A stretch of DNA of 64,000 nucleotides from Thermoflexus sp. (GCA_020724465.1 DYGX01000018.1:1-64000); one strand, 5' to 3'. Shown: positions 31,236 through 45,566, counted from the first letter of the stretch. Numbers and translations: made by a program. Notes: generated from the letters alone by a model not told the origin.

Positions 31236-31308
31236 GAGCGCATAGCCACTCAGAATGCGATTATCGGGCCTGTAACCGGTGGCGACAGATCAACGTGGAA
31301 GGCAGCCA

Positions 31309-34300
31309 ATGAGAATTTACGCGCGCGCTAGACTGACCCGGTTGGGGCTAGCCGTCGCCATGCTGGTTCTGGCGGCGCTTGCCTGTAGTATTGGGGGTGG
31401 CGATAACGAGCGCTCCGACGCCACGCCGACGCTCGCTCCATCGATCTCGCCCACGACGACCGACAGCGCCGTCGGAATGCTTGCCAGCCCGACGGCGTTC
31501 GCCACATGGACGCCGTTGCCCTTCGCCACGGCCACGCCCTTCGTGCTGGCGCCACGAGTCAATACGCCGCTGCCCACATGGACGCCTTTCATTCCACCGC
31601 CCACGCCGCTGCCCTATGATGTGCGTATCACCTATCCGGTGGACGGCAGCCAGATCGCCGGGTACGTAACGGTAACCGGCAGCGCCAGCCACCCGCGTTT
31701 TCTCCAGTACGCGCTGGAGTGGGGGCCGGAGCCGAACCCCGGCAACCTGTGGTATCCGATCACGGCGCCCCGTGCGGTGCCCGTCCTGAACGGCATTCTG
31801 GGAGCATGGAACACAACCAGTGTCGTCGATGGCACGTACCGTTTGCGGTTGCATGTCTGGCTTTCGGACGGCACCGACACCGCGTTTGTCGTCGGCGCGA
31901 TTCGCATCTCGAACGCGCAGCCGACTGCCGTCCCGACGGCGACCCCGACGCAGCGTCCCAACCAGATCCCGCTGATCAACCCCGTGCCGGGCCAGCAGAT
32001 TGAGGCTGGCCAGACGGTGCGCATTCCGATCACGGCGTTCGACCCGGACGGTGACCCCCTGCTGACGTTCGCGTCGTCGAATAACCCGGCGGTGGCCGTT
32101 GCCGAGGTGATCAGCCCGTCCGAGATCAGCGTGCGCGGTGTGACGGCGGGGTCGGCGGTGGTGACGGTCAGCGTGAACGATAACCGCGGCGGCGCGTCGA
32201 GCGCGGCCTTTGCGGTAACCGTCACCGGACAGAACCGCGCCCCGGCGATCAGCCCGATCGTCAACCAGACCATCGAGGTTGGGCAGACGGTCGACATCGC
32301 AGTGCAGGTGTCGGACCCGGACGGCGATACGATCACGTTGAGCGCGGTGTCCAGCAACGATGCTGTGGTGAGCGCATCCGCGCCCAACGCCAGCACGGTG
32401 CGCATCGTGGGGCGCGCGGAAGGTAACGCATCCGTGACGGTCACGGCCAATGACGGACGGGGTGGGGTGATCAGCACCGTCTTCCTGGTCACTGTCGGTT
32501 CGGCGAACCGTCCGCCGGTGGTCGATCCGGTGGGGCCGCAGGTGCTGGTTCCCGGCGAGACGCGCGACGTGGCGTATAACGCGTCCGATCCGGACGGCGA
32601 CACGCTAACGGCCAGCGCGGTGTCGAATAACCCCGGCGCTGTCAGCGCCAGCGTGCCCGCGCCCGGCACGATCCGGTTGGTTGCCGTGCAACCCGGCGTT
32701 GCCACGATCACGCTAACCGTTCAGGATAACCGGACGGCTCCGGTCAGCGTGCAGTTCGAAGTCGCCGTTCAGCAGCAGAACCGTCCGCCGTCGGTCGAAC
32801 CGATCGGGTCGCAGTCCATGACCGTGGGCGCGACGCTCAACGTGCCCTACAGCGCCAGCGACCCGGATGGGGACACGCTAACGGCTGTCGCGCAGTCCAG
32901 CGACCCCGGCGTGGTGAGCGCGCAAATCGCCAACGCCGGGACGATCGCGCTGAGCGCACATCAAGCGGGAACCGCGACGGTCACGCTCAGCGTTGAGGAC
33001 GGGCACAACCCGGCGGTGAGCGTCGCCTTCCTGGTGAACGTGGGCGCGGCGAATGCACCCCCATCGGTTGCACCGATCGGAGATCAGACGCTGACGGTGG
33101 GCGACACCGTCGACATCCCTTACGCGGCGACCGACCCCGACGGCGACCCTCTGACTGCCGAAGCGCTGACCGATAATCCGGCTGTGGCGAGCGTCGAAAT
33201 TCCGGCAGCGGGCACGCTGCGCATTGTCGCTAACGGCGCGGGGCAGGCGTCGATCACGCTGGCAGTGTCGGACGGCACCAACGACGCCGTGCTGACTAGT
33301 TTTGTTGTCACAGTCGCTGCTGCCAACCAGCCTCCGGCCGCCCAGCCGCCGGGCGAGCAGCGTCTTTCGGTTGGCGAGTCGATCCGCGTTCCCATTGGCG
33401 CCACCGATCCGGACGGCGATTCGCTGACGCTCGACGTGGCATCCGACAACCCGTCGGTCGCCAGCGCGCAGGCCGAGCAAATGGATGCCGTGATCACCGG
33501 GAACGCAGCCGGGACGGCGACGATTATCGCGGATGTCAGCGACGGGCGCGGGGGTGTCAGCACGGTCACGTTCCTGGTGATCGTCGAGGGCCAGAACAGC
33601 GCGCCTGTGATCCAGCCGGTGCCCGAGCAGGCGCTGGCGGTAGGCGAGACGATTCAGGTGCCGCTGAGCATCACCGATGCCGACGGCGATCCGATTGTCC
33701 TGACCGCCATCGCGCAGGATCAGGGCGTGGCGACGGCGCAGGCGGTCGGCGCGGACACGGTCGTGCTGCAAGGGATCGGGGAAGGGGTGACGGTGGTCGA
33801 TCTGACTGCGGATGACGCACGGGGTGGCGTGACGCTATCCAGCTTCTCCGTGACGGTGACAGCCGCCGGCCCGTCTTTCGACCTCAACGCGTACCCCGTG
33901 GTCCCCCAGCTCACCGAGCGAAGTGTGGCGATGCTGCGGCAGGTGTACGACAGCGGTGCACTCAATTTCGGAAACCGGGCGGGGGCCTTCAGCAAGGTGG
34001 GCGACGAGTCCGTCGCCAGCGATGCCTTTCTAGCGCCGTTCGCCGGGGACCAGTACAACCTTGGCAGCTTCACGTCGCTGCAAGGGCTGGTCGACGTCTA
34101 CCGCGCGACTCCGGTCCATGGCGATGATCCATCCGTGAACAGCTTTAACGTGAACAGCGTGGCCGCTGAAGCAGGTTTTGCGATCGATTCACTCTGGCTG
34201 CCGCCCGCGCCGGGCGCGCCTTGCGATGGTCCGGCGTCCGCGACGGCGCTCGGCTGCGAGTTCGCCGCTACCCGGCCCAGCATCGCCCTGATCAGCTTCG

Positions 34301-34668
34301 GTGCGGAGAACGTCGCGTTCATGAATCCGGACCAGTTCCGCAGCGAGTTGCAGGTCCTGGTGATGGACAGCCTCAGCCAGTATGGAGTCATCCCGGTGCT
34401 GGCGACCATCCCGGCGGGCGGCGGGTACACCACCGAACAGCTCGCCGAGTACAATCGCGCGATTGTCGAGGTTGCCACGCAGGCGGACGTGCCGCTGTGG
34501 AATCTGTGGCGGGCGATGCACGAGCGCGGAATCGGCGATCCGTTCAGTGTGGCCCCTGAGGGCGCGGGGGTCTTGACGGACACGGGGCTGAGCTACGGCT
34601 ACAACGTGCGCAACCTCACCGCGCTGCAGACGCTCGCGGCAGTGCGCGAGGCCGTCGGGCTCCAGTAG
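31309..34668 (+). CDS. Large lipoprotein with seven Ig-like repeats and SGNH-like C-terminal domain
   Basis: The 1119-residue protein begins with a lipoprotein signal ending L-A-A-L-A-C26. A Thr/Pro-rich spacer follows, then an Ig-like domain (about 95-205, DVRITYPVDGSQIAGYVTVTG). Seven repeats of about 91 residues (218-853) each contain a DPDGD or DADGD calcium-like motif and GxxSVTVxVxDxRGG. The C-terminal 260 residues resemble an SGNH/GDSL fold (FSKVGDESVASDAF, ISFGAENVAF, IPVLATIPAGG), but block I lacks a clean GDS serine context and the last Asp-His block is not clear, so activity is doubtful. It is lipid-anchored outside the cell. GGAAGG precedes the ATG at 31309. Monocistronic, with its own promoter and terminator. 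Confidence 0.85.
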   Translation: MRIYARARLTRLGLAVAMLVLAALACSIGGGDNERSDATPTLAPSISPTTTDSAVGMLASPTAFATWTPLPFATATPFVLAPRVNTPLPTWTPFIPPPTPLPYDVRITYPVDGSQIAGYVTVTGSASHPRFLQYALEWGPEPNPGNLWYPITAPRAVPVLNGILGAWNTTSVVDGTYRLRLHVWLSDGTDTAFVVGAIRISNAQPTAVPTATPTQRPNQIPLINPVPGQQIEAGQTVRIPITAFDPDGDPLLTFASSNNPAVAVAEVISPSEISVRGVTAGSAVVTVSVNDNRGGASSAAFAVTVTGQNRAPAISPIVNQTIEVGQTVDIAVQVSDPDGDTITLSAVSSNDAVVSASAPNASTVRIVGRAEGNASVTVTANDGRGGVISTVFLVTVGSANRPPVVDPVGPQVLVPGETRDVAYNASDPDGDTLTASAVSNNPGAVSASVPAPGTIRLVAVQPGVATITLTVQDNRTAPVSVQFEVAVQQQNRPPSVEPIGSQSMTVGATLNVPYSASDPDGDTLTAVAQSSDPGVVSAQIANAGTIALSAHQAGTATVTLSVEDGHNPAVSVAFLVNVGAANAPPSVAPIGDQTLTVGDTVDIPYAATDPDGDPLTAEALTDNPAVASVEIPAAGTLRIVANGAGQASITLAVSDGTNDAVLTSFVVTVAAANQPPAAQPPGEQRLSVGESIRVPIGATDPDGDSLTLDVASDNPSVASAQAEQMDAVITGNAAGTATIIADVSDGRGGVSTVTFLVIVEGQNSAPVIQPVPEQALAVGETIQVPLSITDADGDPIVLTAIAQDQGVATAQAVGADTVVLQGIGEGVTVVDLTADDARGGVTLSSFSVTVTAAGPSFDLNAYPVVPQLTERSVAMLRQVYDSGALNFGNRAGAFSKVGDESVASDAFLAPFAGDQYNLGSFTSLQGLVDVYRATPVHGDDPSVNSFNVNSVAAEAGFAIDSLWLPPAPGAPCDGPASATALGCEFAATRPSIALISFGAENVAFMNPDQFRSELQVLVMDSLSQYGVIPVLATIPAGGGYTTEQLAEYNRAIVEVATQADVPLWNLWRAMHERGIGDPFSVAPEGAGVLTDTGLSYGYNVRNLTALQTLAAVREAVGLQ
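31960..33867 (+). repeat. Seven tandem Ig-like coding repeats
   Basis: Seven consecutive units of about 270 bases each encode a domain starting N-x-x-P and holding DPDGD (unit 7: DADGD). The units differ at many positions, so they are old duplications and not a recent expansion. Confidence 0.9.
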
Positions 34669-35386: not shown

Positions 35387-35584
35387 CGCGGCGTTTCCCC
35401 CTTTTGCTTGATCAAAACGCCCCGTGTTGATTACCATTGGTGTGTGCGGCTGCCCGCCGGCGCACCGGTTATCAGGATGCGGTGGTGAGGACAGTCATCT
35501 GTTAATGAAAACCGGATTTTGCAGATTTGGTTACGCGTGGGCCGCGCAGCGATGGCGCGATCCACTCACAGCGGGGCGACCTCT

Positions 35585-37207
35585 ATGAACCGGGCGAGAC
35601 GTTATCTGGCTTGGCTGGTGATGCTGGCAGCTTTGCTGGCGGCATGCCAGGATCAACCGGGATCGGGCGGGCGGCTCAACATCACCGTCTATGCGGACGG
35701 CTCGAGCCGCGTCTACACCTATGACGATCCCGTTTCCGTGGGCCAATTCTTGCAGGCGATCGATGTGACGCTCAACCCGCTCGACGAGGTGAATCCGCCG
35801 CTCTATACCCAACTGCGCGATGGGCTGCGCATCACCATCACCCGTGTGGAAGAGCGCCAGGAATGCGCGCGCGAGCCGATCCCGTTCCAGCGGCAACTGG
35901 TCCCATCCGAGCGCCTGCGGCCCGACGAACAGCAGATCGGCCAGACAGGAGAGGTCGGCGAGCTGGAAGTCTGCTACCTGGTGACGACAAAGGACGGCGT
36001 GGAAGTCAGCCGGAACCTGAGCAGCCGCGTTCCGATCCGCCCCGCACGTGACGAGATCGTGTACGTTGGTGTGGAGCCGTCCGAAACGGCGATCAGCGTC
36101 GAGGGCACGCTAGCCTACATTTCGGGCGATCAACCTTGGATTATTGAGGGGAACACCTCGCGGCGGCGCCCTGCAGCCGAGATCAGCGGGCTGGACAGGC
36201 GCGTGTTCGATCTATCGCCCGATGGCCGCCAGCTTCTTTTCACGCGTGCCACCGCCGACACCAGCGACCCAGATTTCTCCAACGAGCTGTGGGCGGTGCT
36301 GGATACCCGGGCGCGGGTGCCCCAGGCGGTGCAGTTGTTTCCCAACGATGTCCTTTCGGCGCATTGGGTTCCGGGGCGGCCCAACACGCTCAGCTACTCG
36401 ACGGCAGTCCCCTCGACCGACCAGATCGGCTGGCGGGCGTACAACGATCTGTTCGTCGTCGAGCTGGATCCCGCGACGGGCGAGGCAATCTCCGACAGCC
36501 TGGAGCAGGTGATCGAACAGAACGCGCTCGGCGCATACGCCTATTGGGGACGGCGGTTCCTGTGGTCTCCGGCAGGGGACCGGCTGGCCTGGGCGAATGC
36601 GAACAGCATCGGCACGGTAGACCTGGAGACCGGCGAGTTTGTGCCGCTGCTCTCCTTCGCCGCGTATTCGACGCTGCTGCCGCTGGTGTGGGTGCCCACG
36701 CTTTCATGGTCGGATGACGGTTACCTCGTGACGATCGCGCATGGGGCGCCCTATGGTACCGAGTCGCCCGAAGACAGCATTGTGTTTGATACCGCCGTCA
36801 TTGACGTCGAGAATAGCCTGGTGATTGCGGAGTTTCGGGCCAGGACCGGAATCTGGAGCAGCCCGACCTATTCGCCGTTGGTCGAGGGACCGAACGGCCA
36901 GTCTGAGCGCTATATCGCGTTCTTCCAGGCGCGCGAGCCGCTCAACTCACTCGGCTCAACCTATGACCTGTGGGTGGCGGATAGTGACGGGAGCAACGCA
37001 CGCCGCGTCTTCCCCGCCCCCGGCGATCCCGGCCAGGGGTTCCGCTCGCCCGACCCGGAAGACGGCATCGCATGGAGTCCAAGCGGGCGGCATCTGGCGT
37101 TCATCTACCAGCGGAATCTGTGGGTCTACGACCTCGAATCGGGCGTCGCCTATCCGATCACGAGTGATGGGCAGGCGTCGCGTCCGCGCTGGTCGGGTGC
37201 GCCATGA
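35585..37207 (+). CDS. Lipoprotein with G5-like domain and WD40-like propeller
   Basis: This 540-residue lipoprotein has a signal ending L-L-A-A-C21. Residues 28-75 resemble the DUF348 ubiquitin-like fold that precedes G5 domains (NITVYADGSSRVYTYDDPVSVGQFL), and 80-165 resemble a G5 domain. Residues 190-540 form a TolB/WD40-like beta propeller (DLSPDGRQLLFTRA, RFLWSPAGDRLAWA, IAWSPSGRHLAFIY). G5 domains often bind cell-wall amino sugars. The gene ends 4 bases inside the next, so it is made together with the glycosidase-ligase fusion and may hold or sense the glycan that protein handles (inference). The first start in frame (35519) would add 22 polar residues before the signal and is rejected. 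Confidence 0.75.
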   Translation: MNRARRYLAWLVMLAALLAACQDQPGSGGRLNITVYADGSSRVYTYDDPVSVGQFLQAIDVTLNPLDEVNPPLYTQLRDGLRITITRVEERQECAREPIPFQRQLVPSERLRPDEQQIGQTGEVGELEVCYLVTTKDGVEVSRNLSSRVPIRPARDEIVYVGVEPSETAISVEGTLAYISGDQPWIIEGNTSRRRPAAEISGLDRRVFDLSPDGRQLLFTRATADTSDPDFSNELWAVLDTRARVPQAVQLFPNDVLSAHWVPGRPNTLSYSTAVPSTDQIGWRAYNDLFVVELDPATGEAISDSLEQVIEQNALGAYAYWGRRFLWSPAGDRLAWANANSIGTVDLETGEFVPLLSFAAYSTLLPLVWVPTLSWSDDGYLVTIAHGAPYGTESPEDSIVFDTAVIDVENSLVIAEFRARTGIWSSPTYSPLVEGPNGQSERYIAFFQAREPLNSLGSTYDLWVADSDGSNARRVFPAPGDPGQGFRSPDPEDGIAWSPSGRHLAFIYQRNLWVYDLESGVAYPITSDGQASRPRWSGAP

Positions 37208-40200
37208 GCCGGGGTTGGTTGGTCTTCTGGGCCGGGCTGATCCTGGCGCTGGGGAGTGCGGTCGGCGGCTTGGTCACGCTCAACCAGCGCGCCGGGCTGC
37301 TGCGTGGCTGGGAAGACGCGACCGCGACACTCGATCTGCCCTTGCGCGTGCCGCTTGCCGGCGTGAACGTGGAGCTGACACAGTACGATGATCCGACGCT
37401 GGAGCGCGAGCTGGATCGCATTGCAGCAGCCGGGTTCCATTGGGTGCGCCAGCCGGTGCTGTGGGAGCGGATTGAACCGGAACGCGGTGTCTTCGATTGG
37501 TCGGCCTATGACCGGATTGTTGAGGCTGTCGCGGCGAGGCCCGGCCTGGCGTTGATTGCCGTGCTGGATGGCACGCCGCGTTGGGCGCGGCATACGCTCG
37601 CGCCGGATCATCCCTTCGCGCCGCCCGCCAGCGTGGCGGATTTCGGAGCTTTTGCTGCCGCAGTAGCCGGGCGCTACGCTGACATCATCGACACCTATCA
37701 AATCTGGGACGAGCCGAATCTCAAATCGCACTGGGGCGGCTTGGACCCGCGCCCGGCGCACTATGTCGCCATGCTGCGCGCGGCCTACGACGCGATCCAT
37801 GCCGCTGATCCGCACGCGCAGGTCATCGCGGCGGCGCTGGCGCCGACGGTCGAAACCGGTCCGGATAATCTGTCGGATGTGCTCTATCTGCGGGCGATCT
37901 ACGAGCTGGGCGGGCAGGGTGCATTTGACGCTGCCGCCGGCAAGCCTTACGGATACGACACCGGCCCGTACGACCGCCGCGTGAGCCACAGCGTACTGAA
38001 TTTCTCGCGCCTGATCCTGCTGCGCGAGGAGATGGCCCGGCATGGCGACGGCGCCAAGCCGCTGTGGGGCAGCAACTTCGGCTGGCATCACCTGCCGGAT
38101 GGCTGGACGGGACCCCCGTCGATCTGGGGGCAGGTGAGCGCCGACGAGCGCGCGCGGTACACCCGCGATGCATACCGGCGTGCCGCGCAGGAATGGCCCT
38201 GGGCAGGCGGGCTGATCCTGCAGCATTGGGCGCCGGACGCGCCGCCTGACGATCCGCTGCAGGGGTTCGCGCTGGCTCCGGTGATCGACGAGTGGCTGCG
38301 CGATGGCCCGCTGACCGGGGACCACGGCCTGATCCCCGGTCGCCACCCGGTCCAGAACCCGCACGCGCACTACAGCGAGAACTGGCGCTTCAGCGATCTC
38401 GGCGCCGACGCGGCCATCATCGACCCTGCCGCCGTCACGCCGGAGATGGAGAACCGCATCACGCTGACCTTCGAGGGCACCGATTTCGCGATCGCGGCGC
38501 GGCGGGATGACTACAGCGCGTATCTGTTCATCACCGTCGACGGCCACCCGGCGAACGCGCTGCCGCGCCAGCCTGACGGACAGACGTACATCCTGTTGAC
38601 CTCACCGGACCGCCTGCCGTCGCTGGAGCTGATCGCAGTGGCGCGCGGCCTGCCGGCTGGCCCGCACACGGTCGAGATCGTCCACCGTCCCATTCAGGGG
38701 GACGATCGCTGGCCGATCGCCGGCTATGCGGTTGCGCAGCGTGCCAACACGGGCCGCTTCCGCGCGGCGCTGGCGGTATGCGCAGCGCTGGGCGTGACCG
38801 GTCTGGGGTTGGCGGCAGCGACGGGCCGGCGTCTTCCCTGGCGCGCGGTTCGCTGGCCGTCCGGCGCGACGGTGCGGCACGCGCTGGATTGGATTTTGAG
38901 TCTGCTGGCGTCTGTGCTGGTACTGGTCGGGACGCTGCTGGCCTGGGGCGAGCCGCTGGCAACGCTGCTGCGGCGCGATCCCCCGGCGCTGGCGCTGACG
39001 ATCCTGACGGCCGGAATCGCGTCGCTGTCGCCGGTGGCGCTGATGACTTTTGCGGCGCTGATTGTGCTGTTTGTGCTGATCTACAACCGTCCGCTGCTGG
39101 GCCTGATGCTGGTGATCTTCTGGTCGGCGTTCTTTCTCTCCACGCTCGATCTGCTCATCCGGCTATTCGCGACGGTCGAAGTGTATCTGGTTCTGACGGC
39201 GGGCGCGCTGGCGCTGCGCGCGCTGGTTGGGTGGGCGCGCGCCTACCGTGCTGGGAAGCGCTCTATCGAGTTCCGCCCGCGCCTGACGCTGCTCGACTGG
39301 GTGGCGCTGCTGTGGGTGGCGCTGGGCGTCGTGTCGCTTAGCTGGGCGCGCTTTCGCCCGTTCGCGCTACACGAACTGCGCGTCATCATCCTGGATCCGG
39401 CGCTGTTCTACCTGCTGCTTCGCGTGATGCGGCTGGGGCGGCGCGATCTCGTCTGGCTGGCGGATACGCTGGTATTCAGCGGCGCGGCGATCGCGACGGT
39501 CGGGCTATGGTGGTTTTTTACCGGGGAAGGGGTCGTCGAAACACAGGAAGGCGCGCGGCGGCTGATCAGCATCTACGGCTCGCCCAACGGGGTCGGGCTG
39601 TATCTGGGGCGCTGTCTGCCGTTTGCGCTGGCGTACGTCTTGCTGCCGCTGGGTGGTGTGCGGCGCACGGTTGGAGCGGGAGCGCTGAGCGTGATGCTGG
39701 CTGCGGTTTTGCTCAGCCAGAGCCGCGGCGCAATCCTGCTTGGGATGCCGGCTGCCGTGGTGCTGGTGCTGGTGTTCTGGTACGGGCGCCGCGCGGTGAG
39801 GCCGGTTCTGGTGGCGCTGGGCGTGATGACGGCGATCTTCGTGCCGCTTTCGCTAGCGCTTCCGCGGCTGCGCGATCTGCTTGGCGATACGGCCTTTTTC
39901 CGGCGTCACCTGTGGTACAGCGCGCTGAACCTGATCCGCGAGCATCCCCTCACCGGCGCGGGCCTGGATCAGTTCCTGTACTGGTATCGCAGCCGCTATC
40001 TGCTGCCGGAAGCCTGGGCCGAGCCGAACCTTGCCATTCCGCATAACGTTCTGCTCAACCACTGGGTGAACCTGGGCGTCCTTGGCGTGATTGTGGGGGC
40101 CGGGTTCCAGATCGGCTTCTGGCGAGGACTGTGGCAGGCTCGCCAGCACGTGCAGAGCGATCCCGCGCTGTTTGCGCTGGTGCTTGGGCTGGCCGGCAGC

Positions 40201-40368
40201 ATGGCACACGGGCTGGCGCATGGCTTGGTTGACGTCACCTATTTTTCGATCAATCTGGCGTTCGTGTTCTTCCTCTCATTGGGGATGCTGAACCATCTGC
40301 TGCGTCTGGCGGGGGCGAATCCCGCCAGGTCTGAAAGCGTCGAATCGCAAGAAGGAACAGTTGCGTAG
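37204..40368 (+). CDS. Fusion of a glycoside-hydrolase-like domain with an O-antigen-ligase-type membrane domain
   Basis: This 1054-residue protein starts ATGA over the previous stop. A helix at 5-25 anchors it. Residues 50-385 are a GH39/GH-A-like barrel: the acid/base glutamate is Glu170 in YQIWDEPN, but the nucleophile position in the W-x-T-E-F-G-W motif reads WGSNFGW with Asn291. Residues 395-510 form a beta-sandwich ([27 protein letters not shown]). From about 515 there are 12 or more hydrophobic helices with a Wzy/WaaL-type core ([46 protein letters not shown]). The barrel may bind glycan instead of cutting it, and the ligase part would polymerise or transfer lipid-linked glycan outside the membrane. 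Domain order and function are inferred. Confidence 0.85.
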
Positions 40369-40378
40369 GGAGCGTGAG

Positions 40379-40924
40379 ATGCGGGCGCAGATCAACGGCG
40401 TGACCATCGCATTGGCGCAGGGCGACATTACCGAACTGGACTGCGACGCCATCGTCAACGCGGCGAACTCGCAGCTCATCCTCGGCGCCGGAGTGGCCGG
40501 GGCGATCCGCCGCAAGGGTGGGCCTTCAATCCAGGAAGAATGCCTGAAGATCGGCTACTGCGAGGTTGGCCAGGCCGTGATGACAGGCGCTGGAAACCTG
40601 AAGGCCCGTTATGTCATCCATGCGGTGGGGCCGCGAATGGGCGAGGGCAACGAGCGCGGCAAACTGGCGAGCGCCGTGCGCGCCAGCCTGGACCTGGCCG
40701 AGGAACACGGGCTGGCGAGCATCGCGTTTCCGGCGATCTCGACCGGCGTCTTCGGCTTCCCGCTGGAAGCCTGCGCCGACGTGATGCTGCGCGTCCTGAT
40801 CGACTACACGTTCGAAGATCTGCGCAGCCTCAAGCAGGTGATCGTCTGCCTGTACGATGCCCATGCTTACGAGGTTTTCGAGACGGCGTTTCGGGAAAAA
40901 CTGCGCGAATTGCCCGAGGTGTGA
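40379..40924 (+). CDS. Macrodomain protein (ADP-ribose metabolite hydrolase-like)
   Basis: The 181-residue protein is a single macrodomain. Key segments are [22 protein letters not shown] (the ADP-ribose-binding NAAN and G-rich loop), [14 protein letters not shown] and [12 protein letters not shown]. The family hydrolyses O-acetyl-ADP-ribose or removes ADP-ribose from proteins. AGGGAG is 7 bases before the ATG at 40379. It is 10 bases after the ligase fusion and may be co-transcribed, with no obvious functional link. Cytoplasmic. Confidence 0.93.
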
Positions 40925-40944: not shown

Positions 40945-40972
40945 TTGGCGCACGCCCGATTTGTGGTACACT
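40945..40972 (+). promoter_or_regulatory. Promoter of the uxs-chlI gene run
   Basis: TTGGCG, 16 bases and TACACT with a TGG extended element. It lies 46 bases before the epimerase start in the only gap of the region. Confidence 0.6.
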
Positions 40973-41017
40973 TCGCCCGGCTTGGCGTCTGCGAACACGA
41001 AGGAACAGGCTGATTCT

Positions 41018-41956
41018 ATGCGCGTTTTGATTACCGGCGCTGCCGGATTTCTTGGATCGCACCTGTGCGACCGCTTCCTGGCCGAAGGGCACGAGGTGAT
41101 CGGAATGGATAATCTGATCACCGGCAACACGGACAACATCGCTCATCTGGCCGGGCGCAGCGATTTTACGTTCATCCGCTATGATGTTACGCACTATATC
41201 TACATTGAGGGACCCGTTGATGCGGTGCTGCATTTTGCGTCGCCCGCCAGCCCGATCGACTACCTGAACTATCCGATCCAGACGCTCAAAGTGGGATCGC
41301 TGGGGACGCACAACGCGCTGGGGCTGGCGAAAGCCAAGGGCGCGCGCTTCTTGCTGGCGTCCACATCAGAGGTCTACGGCGATCCCCTTGTTCACCCGCA
41401 GCACGAGGATTATCCCGGCAACGTAGATGCGATCGGGCCGCGAGGCGTCTATGATGAAGCCAAGCGTTTCGCCGAGGCGATCACAATGGCCTATCATCGC
41501 ACGCATGGCGTGGACACGCGCATCGCGCGTATTTTCAACACGTATGGGCCGCGGATGCGCCTGGACGATGGCCGTGTGGTTCCGAACTTCATCGGGCAGG
41601 CGCTGCGCGGTGAGCCGCTGACCGTCTACGGAGACGGCTCGCAGACGCGCAGTTTCTGCTACGTCAGCGACCTGATCGAGGGCATCTATCGCTTGCTGAT
41701 GAGCGACTATAACCTGCCCGTCAACATTGGCAACCCGAGCGAGATGTCGATTCTCCAATTCGCCGAGCTGGTGAACCGCCTGACCGCCAACCCGGCAGGA
41801 ATCGTCTTCAAGGACGATTTGCGCATTAAGGGCGATCCCCAAACCCGCCAGCCGGATATCACACGGGCCAGGGCGATTTTAGGCTGGGAGCCGGTCGTTG
41901 ACCTGCCGCACGGCCTGGAGATGACGATCGCGTACTTCAAGGAACGCGTCCGGTGA
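41018..41956 (+). CDS. UDP-glucuronate decarboxylase (UDP-xylose synthase)
   Basis: The 312-residue SDR enzyme has [11 protein letters not shown] (NAD, residues 7-17), [20 protein letters not shown] and the catalytic Y-D-E-A-K of YDEAKR. The ASPASP and [13 protein letters not shown] segments are the UXS signature that separates it from dTDP-glucose dehydratases. It makes UDP-xylose from UDP-glucuronate for surface glycans. AAGGAA sits 12 bases upstream of the ATG at 41018. The stop overlaps the next start (GTGA). Confidence 0.9.
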
Positions 41957-43452
41957 CTCTTGCCCGCCCGGTTATCTCGCCGCGCGTCCGCCCCATGGCG
42001 TGGGGTGCTGCAGCGCTGATCTTTGGCGCTGCAGCGGGGTTGCTACCCGTCCCGGCGAGCACCGGGCTGCTCGTTGCCCTGGTGCTCGGCCTTGCCGTGC
42101 TGGTGGAGCCGTCGCTCGGCCTGGTGGTGATGCTGTGTGTGGCGCCGTTGAAGGTGCTGATCGCGACCGAAGCGCCGCTCGCGCTGCCCGGCGATGTCGG
42201 GCAGTGGGCGTTTGGGGCGGCTGTTGGCGCATGGGCGGTGTGGCGTGCCAGCCGGGCGAGGACTCGCCCGCTGCCGCGCACGCGCGTTGCTGCCGCGCTG
42301 CTGGCGATCCTGCTGGGGTTCGCGCCTTCACTGTTCGCGGCAGCATCAGGTTCGGCGTGGCTGGCCGAGGCGCTGAAGTGGATCGAGATGACCGTCCTGG
42401 TCCTGATTGTGGTCGAGCTGGGCGAGCGCGGACGCTGGGCGTGGATTGCCTTTGGCATCGTGCTGTCGGCAGCGCTCCAGGCCGCCATCGGGCTGTACGA
42501 GTACTGGGGCGGATCGGGCGCGCCGCATCTGTGGATCGCCGGCTACACCCGTTTTCGGGCGTTTGGGACATTCGGGCAGCCGAATCCGTTCAGCGCCTTC
42601 ATGGGGCTGTCGCTGCCGCTGGCGCTCGGGCTGGCGTGGGGCAACGCCCGCCTGGCGTGGAATCGCTGGCAGGCTGGCGATGGCCGCGCCGTGCGCTGGC
42701 CAGCCGCTGCCGCAGGTCTCTATGGCGGCGCCGGACTGCTCATTTTGGGCGGGCTGGTGGCATCGTGGGGGCGAGGCGCCTGGCTGGGATTTGCCGCCGC
42801 GCTGGCAGTGATGGTGATGTTTGCTCCGCGCCGCCGGGCGATTGGAGCTGGTCTGCTGCTGGGCGGCGCGGCATTACTCGGCGTGGTGTGGGCGGCTGGA
42901 CTCGTCCCGGCGGGTATTGCCGGGCGCGTGACCGGTACACTGGACGAGTTCGTCGGCTTCAGAGACGTGCGAGGGATCTTCGTGACCAACGAGAACTTCT
43001 CGACCGTCGAACGGCTGGCGCACTGGCAGGCGGCGCTCGACATGGCAGCCGCGCATCCGCTGGCGGGCGTCGGGCTCGGCAATTACGAGGCGGCCTATCC
43101 GGGCTATGCCCTGCCGCGCTGGCCGCACGCTTTGGGTCATGCCCATAACGACTATCTTAACTTGCTGGCCGAAACCGGTATAATAGGGCTGGCAGCCTAC
43201 CTGACCGGGTGGGCGCTGATCGTGATCTGGACGGTGCGTGCGCTCAGCCTGCGCCCGCCGGTCATGCACGGTCTGGTGGTCGGCCTTCTGGGGGCCTGGA
43301 CTCATCTGGCGGTTCACAGTGTGGTCGACAAGCTCACCGTGAATAATCTCTTTCTGCACATCGGCGTCATGCTTGGCCTATTGGCTGTGGCGGACCGGAC
43401 CCGCCGCTGCGCCGCAAAGGGCACGGAATATGGCATCATCGGATCACACTGA
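41953..43452 (+). CDS. O-antigen ligase/polymerase-like membrane protein (Wzy/WaaL)
   Basis: The 499-residue protein has about 11-12 hydrophobic helices and the Wzy_C-type core with [33 protein letters not shown] and [21 protein letters not shown], then [18 protein letters not shown], the conserved large-loop His and Glu motif. It ligates or polymerises lipid-linked glycan on the outer face of the membrane. GTG start overlaps the UDP-xylose synthase stop. It is the second ligase-type protein in the window and, unlike the one at 37204, has no glycosidase domain. Confidence 0.87.
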
Positions 43453-44032
43453 ATCGCTCACCGAGACACTGGCAGGCTGGTCGATGCAGCCGCTGCGTAC
43501 GCTCAACAGCTTGATCGCCCGCGTTAGCCTTCGCTTTGGCAACAGAGCCAAGGAAGTCGAGCGCTTCATCAAGTTTGCGATCGTTGGCATTATCGGCGCG
43601 GTGGTCGATTTCGGCACGCTGAACGTGCTGCAGGCGACCGTCTTGCGCCCGGTCGATCCGCATCTCGAGACGAAGGTCGCGCTGGCGACCGGGATCGCCT
43701 TTAGTGCAGCGGTGACCAGCAACTTCACCTGGAACCGCTACTGGACCTACCCGGACTCGCGCTCGCGCCGCATCCGCTACCAGTTGGTGCAGTTCTTCAT
43801 CGTCAATTCGCTGGGGATGGCGTTCCGCCTGTGGTTTGTCCACACGCTGTTTGTGCCGATGGGGCATGCGGGGTACGATGTGCTCCGGGCGCTGAGCCTG
43901 CTGGAAACCGAGCTGTCTCAGGCCGCGCAGAGCCAGCTCGGCACGAATATCGCGCAGTTCTTCGCGGTGTGGATCGTCATGTTGTGGAACTTTTTCGTGA
44001 ACCGCTACTGGACCTACAACGATGTGGAGTAG
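43430..44032 (+). CDS. GtrA-family membrane protein
   Basis: The 200-residue protein has a polar 45-residue N-terminus then four membrane helices in the GtrA layout (FIKFAIVGIIGAVVDFGTLNVLQ, SNFTWNRYWTYPD, FFVNRYWTYND). GtrA proteins help flip or present lipid-linked sugars. The start at 43430 (AAAGGG upstream) lies inside the end of the ligase gene, a 23-base overlap. The loop between helices 3 and 4 is longer than in short GtrA proteins, with VETELSQAAQ-like helix. Confidence 0.87.
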   Translation: MASSDHTESLTETLAGWSMQPLRTLNSLIARVSLRFGNRAKEVERFIKFAIVGIIGAVVDFGTLNVLQATVLRPVDPHLETKVALATGIAFSAAVTSNFTWNRYWTYPDSRSRRIRYQLVQFFIVNSLGMAFRLWFVHTLFVPMGHAGYDVLRALSLLETELSQAAQSQLGTNIAQFFAVWIVMLWNFFVNRYWTYNDVE

Positions 44033-44423: not shown

Positions 44424-45566
44424 ATGCCGACGATCGGCATTGACTACACGGCTGCATATGAACAGGGCGCCGGGATCGGCCGCTACGTGCGCGAATTGAT
44501 CGGCGCTCTGGCAGAGATCGACTCAACCACCCCCTACCGTCTCTTCGTGTCCGGCGCCACGCGGCGCAGTCTTCCACCAGCTCCAGGTGCAAATTTCACC
44601 TGGCGGCCCACGCGGATTACCCCGCTGTGGTTTGCGCGGCTGTGGCATCGCGCGCGGGTCCCGCTGCCCGTCGAGGCGTTTGTGGGCCGCGTCGATCTGT
44701 TCCACGCCACAGACTTCACGCTGCCGCCGACCCTGCCCGGCACGGTAACCCTGCTGACGGTACACGATCTGTCTTTTGTCCGTGCGCCCGAAACCGCAAC
44801 GCCCGTCCTGAAAGCCTATCTCGACCGGGTGGTACCCCGTTCGGTCCGGCGGGCGAGCCACGTCCTGGCCGACTCGCAGGCCACCAAAGACGATCTGGTC
44901 GCGCTCTACGGCGTGGCGCCGGAAAAAGTCAGCGTATTGCTGAGCGGAGTCAGCGCGCACTTCCGGCCCGTACAGGATCCGGCGGTCCGCGCTGCTGTAC
45001 GCGAGCGGTACGGCATTCCGGCGGCGCCGTATATTTTCTCGGTTGGGACCGTCCAGCCGCGCAAAAACTACGCACGGTTGATGGAAGCACTCGCCGCACT
45101 GGGTCCAGAAGCTGGTGATATCCGGCTGGTGATCGCCGGGGGGCGCGGCTGGCTCGACAGCCCGATCTACGACGCGGTGCGGGCGCTTGGGCTGGAGGGG
45201 CGCGTTCATTTCACCGGTTTTGTGGACGATGCCGATCTCCCGGCGTTATACAGCGACGCGCTGTGCCTGGCCTATCCGTCCCTGTACGAAGGGTTTGGTT
45301 TCCCGGTGCTGGAAGCGTTTGCTTGCGGAACGCCCGTGATCACGTCTAAACTGTCATCCATGCCGGAGGTGGCCGGGGACGCGGCGCTGCTGGTGGACCC
45401 GTATGACGTTGGCGCGCTGACGGCGGCGCTCAAGCGCCTGCTGAGCGATCCGGCGCTGCGGGCGGAACTGGTCAGGCGCGGCTATCGTCAGGCGGAGCAG
45501 TTCACCTGGGCGCGTGCCGCTTCCCAACTGGCGGGCATCTACCGCCGGCTGATCGCGCAGGAGTGA
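44424..45566 (+). CDS. Glycosyltransferase, GT4 family
   Basis: The 380-residue GT-B enzyme has the acceptor loop GAGIGRYVRELI near residue 17, a linker with SVGTVQPRKNYARLMEAL near 205 and the donor site E-x7-E in YPSLYEGFGFPVLEAFACGTPVI near 290. It is closely related in layout to the enzyme at 15252. It probably adds a sugar, mannose or glucose type, to a lipid-linked glycan on the inner membrane face. It follows the response regulator by 11 bases in the same operon. Confidence 0.92.
   Translation: MPTIGIDYTAAYEQGAGIGRYVRELIGALAEIDSTTPYRLFVSGATRRSLPPAPGANFTWRPTRITPLWFARLWHRARVPLPVEAFVGRVDLFHATDFTLPPTLPGTVTLLTVHDLSFVRAPETATPVLKAYLDRVVPRSVRRASHVLADSQATKDDLVALYGVAPEKVSVLLSGVSAHFRPVQDPAVRAAVRERYGIPAAPYIFSVGTVQPRKNYARLMEALAALGPEAGDIRLVIAGGRGWLDSPIYDAVRALGLEGRVHFTGFVDDADLPALYSDALCLAYPSLYEGFGFPVLEAFACGTPVITSKLSSMPEVAGDAALLVDPYDVGALTAALKRLLSDPALRAELVRRGYRQAEQFTWARAASQLAGIYRRLIAQE

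Follow-up and report, generated by a model that had tools for sequence, protein, structure and literature searches.

We describe a barrel-ligase fusion protein of 1054 aa, encoded at 37204..40368 on the + strand of a 64,000-nucleotide stretch of Thermoflexus sp. (GCA_020724465.1 DYGX01000018.1:1-64000; the whole of this stretch is hereafter called the window), in which a GH39-type, PslG-like TIM barrel that has lost its catalytic nucleophile precedes a Wzy/WaaL-type membrane domain. The reading that we favour, with a confidence somewhat above even, is that the barrel is a predicted non-hydrolytic, glycan-binding module that guides a Wzy/WaaL-type polymerase or ligase of a surface-glycan operon. 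This bears on the question of why glycan-cutting enzymes are encoded in operons for polysaccharide synthesis. Natural variation across one class of Chloroflexota parts binding from cutting and, because the cutting residue was removed again and again while the rest of the sugar-binding cleft was retained, it suggests that a former cutter was reused as a chain holder. The data also point to a conserved surface-glycan operon in this phylum.

The reading frame is open from end to end and has orthologues. An N-terminal transmembrane anchor (residues 6-24; 37219..37275, + strand, as for all parts of the protein and operon genes listed below) is followed by the TIM barrel (residues 45-390; 37336..38373), by a beta-sandwich (residues 391-515; 38374..38748) whose weak CE2_N match at 419-467 lies below the cut-off, by a return transmembrane helix (residues 521-539; 38764..38820) and by the Wzy/WaaL-type membrane domain (residues 545-1045; 38836..40338), which was delineated by Pfam, profile and hydropathy. 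Both anchor helices were located by hydropathy, which places them on either side of the barrel and gives about 14 further segments in the ligase part; the type of membrane domain named in a preliminary description of this DNA was upheld, but not its count of 12 helices. According to the positive-inside rule the N-terminus would be inside and the barrel outside. Hydropathy and positive-inside signals together predict that the soluble part lies on the outer face, as do the conserved loops of the ligase, and the barrel and the conserved ligase residues would then share one side of the membrane. The full-length AF2 model was poor (pLDDT 58.7, 12 sequences) and served for rough secondary structure only; a barrel-only model (21 sequences; pLDDT 86.1, pTM 0.88) took its place.

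Residues 45-390 adopt a TIM-barrel fold related to GH39, as had been proposed, and structure prediction and comparison lead more precisely to PslG. This protein was retrieved by phmmer (E 2.5e-14) and by profile search (E 1.8e-32), with GH39 xylosidases ranking next, and it was the top structure match of the barrel model (PslG 5bx9; Foldseek 5e-20; Z 29.2, rmsd 3.3 over 310 residues, ~21% identity); Pfam returned only sub-threshold GH42 and CE2_N matches on the barrel. PslG is a retaining endo-glucosidase in which E165 serves as the acid/base and E276 is the nucleophile (PMC11912335). Alignments place Glu170 (WDEPN), after strand 4, on the acid/base of PslG, and Asn291 (WGSNFGW; codon at 38074..38076), after strand 7, on the Glu of its STEWGW motif, confirming that the acid/base is kept and that the nucleophile position reads Asn. 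Two further changes relative to PslG and to homologues on viral contigs accompany this loss: the canonical Asn before the acid/base is Asp169, i.e. NEP has become DEP (Asp169-Glu170; 37708..37713), and KPY replaces HPY (Lys247-Pro-Tyr249; 37942..37950). E170 is invariant in the family of the window, and residue 291 is N, H, Y or Q, never E, in this family and its nearest outlier. A carboxylate that could substitute for the lost nucleophile was looked for in the barrels lacking E291 and none was found, D169 being the sole acidic column gained. Since the nucleophile is missing, the protein is not classed as an active GH39 enzyme; the suggestion of a retaining enzyme turned transferase likewise gained no positive evidence, the covalent nucleophile being absent and no other carboxylate replacing it. 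Paralogous barrels within the window's own family retain WNEPN.

The ligase half carries a Wzy_C domain at residues 827-964 (39682..40095; E 4e-17, 62.8 bits for a Pfam cut-off of 31.7) with a large loop predicted by hydropathy to lie outside. Its profile matches the solved WaaL 7tpg (3.7e-11) with the outer-loop His aligned, His947 (40042..40044) corresponding to the His of the HAHN motif. Over 32 diverse members, H947, H1006 (40219..40221; on the predicted outer face), D1010, R726, R803 and R900 are invariant. The protein thus resembles the WaaL/Wzy_C superfamily (7tpg, PF04932) in its above-threshold Wzy_C, in the His of the large outer loop and in an N-in/C-in topology by hydropathy; unlike WaaL, it bears an extra N-terminal anchor, a barrel and a sandwich, and no LPS acceptor is expected. 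LpxC and Omp85 gave no match in the 99% complete genome, whereas control genomes were positive, and Chloroflexota are viewed as lacking LPS and BAM, with envelope layers that are poorly understood (PMC13319060). Because LpxC and Omp85 were undetected, lipid A is an unlikely acceptor and an LPS-ligase role is unlikely; the O-antigen-ligase label given previously is therefore retained for the Wzy/WaaL-type domain but not in the sense of an LPS ligase. On sequence grounds, this half is probably a Wzy/WaaL-type polymerase or ligase of a surface glycan.

The fusion is real: the same genus contains a copy with 93% identity, the fusion is widespread among relatives, and an assembly artefact or frameshift as its source was ruled out by many independent genomes. 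The ligase half was present in 133 of the 154 genomes of the order; sampling of the class detected it in 308 of 396 genomes (usually one per genome, in ORFs of ~1000-1150 aa) and sampling of the phylum in 165 of 400. Our survey of the fusion covered Chloroflexota, so no restriction to this phylum is claimed. Coupling between barrel and ligase extends across the phylum. Outside the class, 34 sampled loci divided into 17 fused and 17 non-fused; for 8 of the 17 non-fused ligases the immediately preceding ORF on that strand is a barrel, the two genes overlapping or lying no more than 11 nt apart, and at two other loci a barrel is located 0.4 and 1.6 kb upstream. At seven phylum loci with the ligase, a nearby barrel was looked for and not found. 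Separate genes for the two halves, earlier put forward as a sign of an artefact, therefore do exist, but as a natural operon arrangement with the barrel first. Within the class, two loci of one family (L143, 1558-3567, and L147, 515-2443) have a ligase downstream of a G5 lipoprotein and no detectable barrel, an apparent secondary loss. A literature search for such a barrel-ligase fusion found nothing, by which its absence is not proven.

Several arrangements were also observed alongside the fusion. Separate PslG-like genes with intact NEP and Glu occur directly upstream of the fused barrel-ligase at three loci (L149, 5015-6757; L161, 11142-12875; L157, 4414-5598), forming tandem barrels. At L111 (6364-9565), barrel and ligase occupy two overlapping frames where clade relatives are fused, i.e. 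a gene fission or a frameshift. When contigs catalogued as viral (L248-L261) were searched, the only PslG-like barrels were distant ones; these have WNEPN, and some belong to ORFs longer than 1000 aa.

To follow position 291, 140 fetched regions were combined with the window's family, giving 135 fused barrels in which column 291 could be scored, of which 47 have E291 and 88 do not (N, H, A, S or Q). Conservation of Asn291, flagged earlier for checking, therefore holds as the consistent absence of Glu inside the family but not beyond it. Because relatives with Glu291 exist outside the family, loss of this residue is, as far as the compared sequences go, a derived and labile condition that does not characterise the group as a whole. 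On a quick ligase-based tree with moderate support, at least 14 changes of state between E and non-E were counted; equal costs gave 4 losses and 10 regains, and forbidding regain gave 27 losses. Barrels with Asn169 and Glu170 retain Glu291, and nearly all nucleophile losses occur in a DEP background. Both catalytic Glu are present in 21 DEP-type and 15 NEP-type barrels (132 fused barrels scored). In the class, most fused barrels are of the DEP/KPY type and in the main lack Glu291; others have lost E170 instead, and a few have lost both. It is likely that NEP+Glu barrels are ancestral and that the class changed to DEP. The raw pair counts at 169-247 (D-K 110, N-N/Q/M 30, H-Q 4) show a strong association, but with only 4 independent pairs found on branches with support (p 0.25), covariation is not claimed.

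Of the 88 barrels without Glu291, 82 retain E170 and likewise 82 retain D169, and W168, P171, N172, W288, G293 and W294 are near-invariant, while position 291 itself varies more than average (2.18 bits vs a column mean of 1.70; rank 209 of 343). The conserved positions are not limited to the core but include W168, N172, Y249, W288 and W294, which line the glycosidase cleft. Both halves are under purifying selection (compared with the same-genus copy, the barrel has a dN/dS of 0.109 and the ligase one of 0.120). Taken together, a variable 291, a held cleft and this low dN/dS suggest that the barrel is retained for a role in which the nucleophile is not required.

The fusion lies in an operon. 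The upstream gene (35519..37207, its true start probably at ~35585, before the lipobox) encodes a lipoprotein with a DUF348/G5 domain (3.4e-13) and TolB-like propeller repeats; its stop ends at 37207 and the fusion starts at 37204, so that both the 4-base overlap and the G5-like domain described previously are correct, and this neighbour is conserved upstream of the fusion in 34 of 89 loci. Downstream, Pfam and operon comparison identify a macro-domain protein (40361..40924), a member of the NDP-sugar epimerase/decarboxylase family (40961..41956), whose motif we take to resemble that of UDP-glucuronate decarboxylase, a second Wzy_C membrane protein (41953..43452), a GtrA-like membrane protein (43373..44032) and a GT4-type glycosyltransferase (44424..45566). 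In much of the class the order is lipoprotein (G5 + propeller), barrel-ligase, often macro-domain, epimerase, Wzy_C, GtrA and GT4; many other loci of the phylum show barrel-ligase, epimerase, Wzy_C and GT4.

We propose that the ancestor was a PslG-like endoglycosidase gene beside the ligase, whose product would have trimmed the growing lipid-linked chain. Cutting may then have become dispensable as the two were fused and the -1 site was remodelled (NEP to DEP, Lys at 247). The present barrel would grip the glycan with its conserved cleft and offer the chain to the catalytic face of the ligase (His947 and the outer-face arginines), thereby helping acceptor choice, chain length or processivity. 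That a glycan guide is attached to the enzyme handling the same polymer, as first suggested, would fit the fused or adjacent genes and the shared operon. Several observations count against a guide: the conserved E170 could mean remaining chemistry, relatives with both catalytic Glu indicate that some members of the group may still hydrolyse glycans, ligases without a barrel (L143, L147 and the seven phylum loci) show it to be dispensable for such ligases, and the phenotype of the PslG double mutant shows that catalysis matters in PslG (PMC6813494). More tentatively, at a little under an even chance, we consider that the nucleophile was given up repeatedly in one class and that the barrel either serves the ligase by holding the chain, and possibly measuring its length, or works by a substrate-assisted Asp-Glu mechanism; if true, either reading would be a new way to couple hydrolase folds with Wzy/WaaL chemistry.

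The latter mechanism, taken alone, would leave the barrel an enzyme (hydrolase or transglycosylase) whose Asp169-Glu170 dyad acts on an N-acetylated glycan with no need of Glu291. The Asp-Glu dyad of the substrate-assisted hexosaminidases (GH20) provides the analogy, and the retention of D169 and E170 in most nucleophile-less barrels, together with the near-confinement of nucleophile losses to the DEP background, agrees with it. However, some related barrels have lost E170 (Q, N, A, D or S) with fold and motifs unchanged, D169 accompanies K247, making a salt bridge an equally likely reason for the Asp, and the phylogeny-controlled 169-247 pairs are few; we regard this enzyme as unlikely. It is similarly improbable that the barrel is a structural spacer, or a docking part for a protein such as the second Wzy_C product or the lipoprotein with G5 and propeller, that binds no glycan: the overlapping lipoprotein gene and the drift of the catalytic residues would suit such a role, but conservation reaches the residues lining the cleft.

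There is a slim chance that the barrel of this group is an ordinary GH39-type endoglycosidase of which the window's clade holds a decayed copy, with paralogues supplying the activity in trans. The 36 fused barrels with both Glu are compatible with this, as are a dozen more PslG-like barrel matches in the same genome, those inspected having WNEPN; nevertheless, the dN/dS of the barrel and the deep-time conservation of its cleft show no decay. Finally, the remote homology to PslG would allow residue 291 to be misassigned and the true nucleophile to lie elsewhere, but this is very improbable, the sequence, profile and viral-contig alignments agreeing on the column and the set lacking E291 gaining no acidic column except D169.

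The closest known counterpart of the proposed glycan guide is PslG, a GH39 protein of Psl biosynthesis in Pseudomonas aeruginosa, whose Wzy-like partner would be PslJ. PslG is an inner-membrane part of the polysaccharide synthesis complex, most Psl production is lost in its E165Q+E276Q double mutant (PMC6813494), and its activity is required for normal output (PMC6813494, PMC9075953). The barrel studied here belongs to the same subfamily and is likewise placed beside a polysaccharide synthesis machine; whereas PslG is separate and active, this barrel is joined to the ligase and has DEP for NEP, KPY for HPY and Asn in place of Glu276. By analogy, the Chloroflexota fusion would resemble the PslG/Wzy pair, with the canonical cutting chemistry apparently dropped in the window's clade. 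PssZ, BcsZ, AlgL and PgaB, hydrolases of exopolysaccharide operons (PMC6813494), similarly tie a glycan-cutting fold to a synthesis machine but are encoded apart, unlike the former cutter described here, which is fused and has lost its nucleophile.

Two neighbours of the fusion deserve mention. The macro-domain gene (ADP-ribose type) overlaps the end of the fusion and lies between it and the epimerase in 12 of 89 loci. Further upstream, a lipoprotein-like ORF of 1129 aa (31279-34668) combines ~7 repeats of the bacterial Ig/cadherin-like kind with a GDSL-like region at its C-terminus; relatives have it in the same position ahead of the glycan operon.
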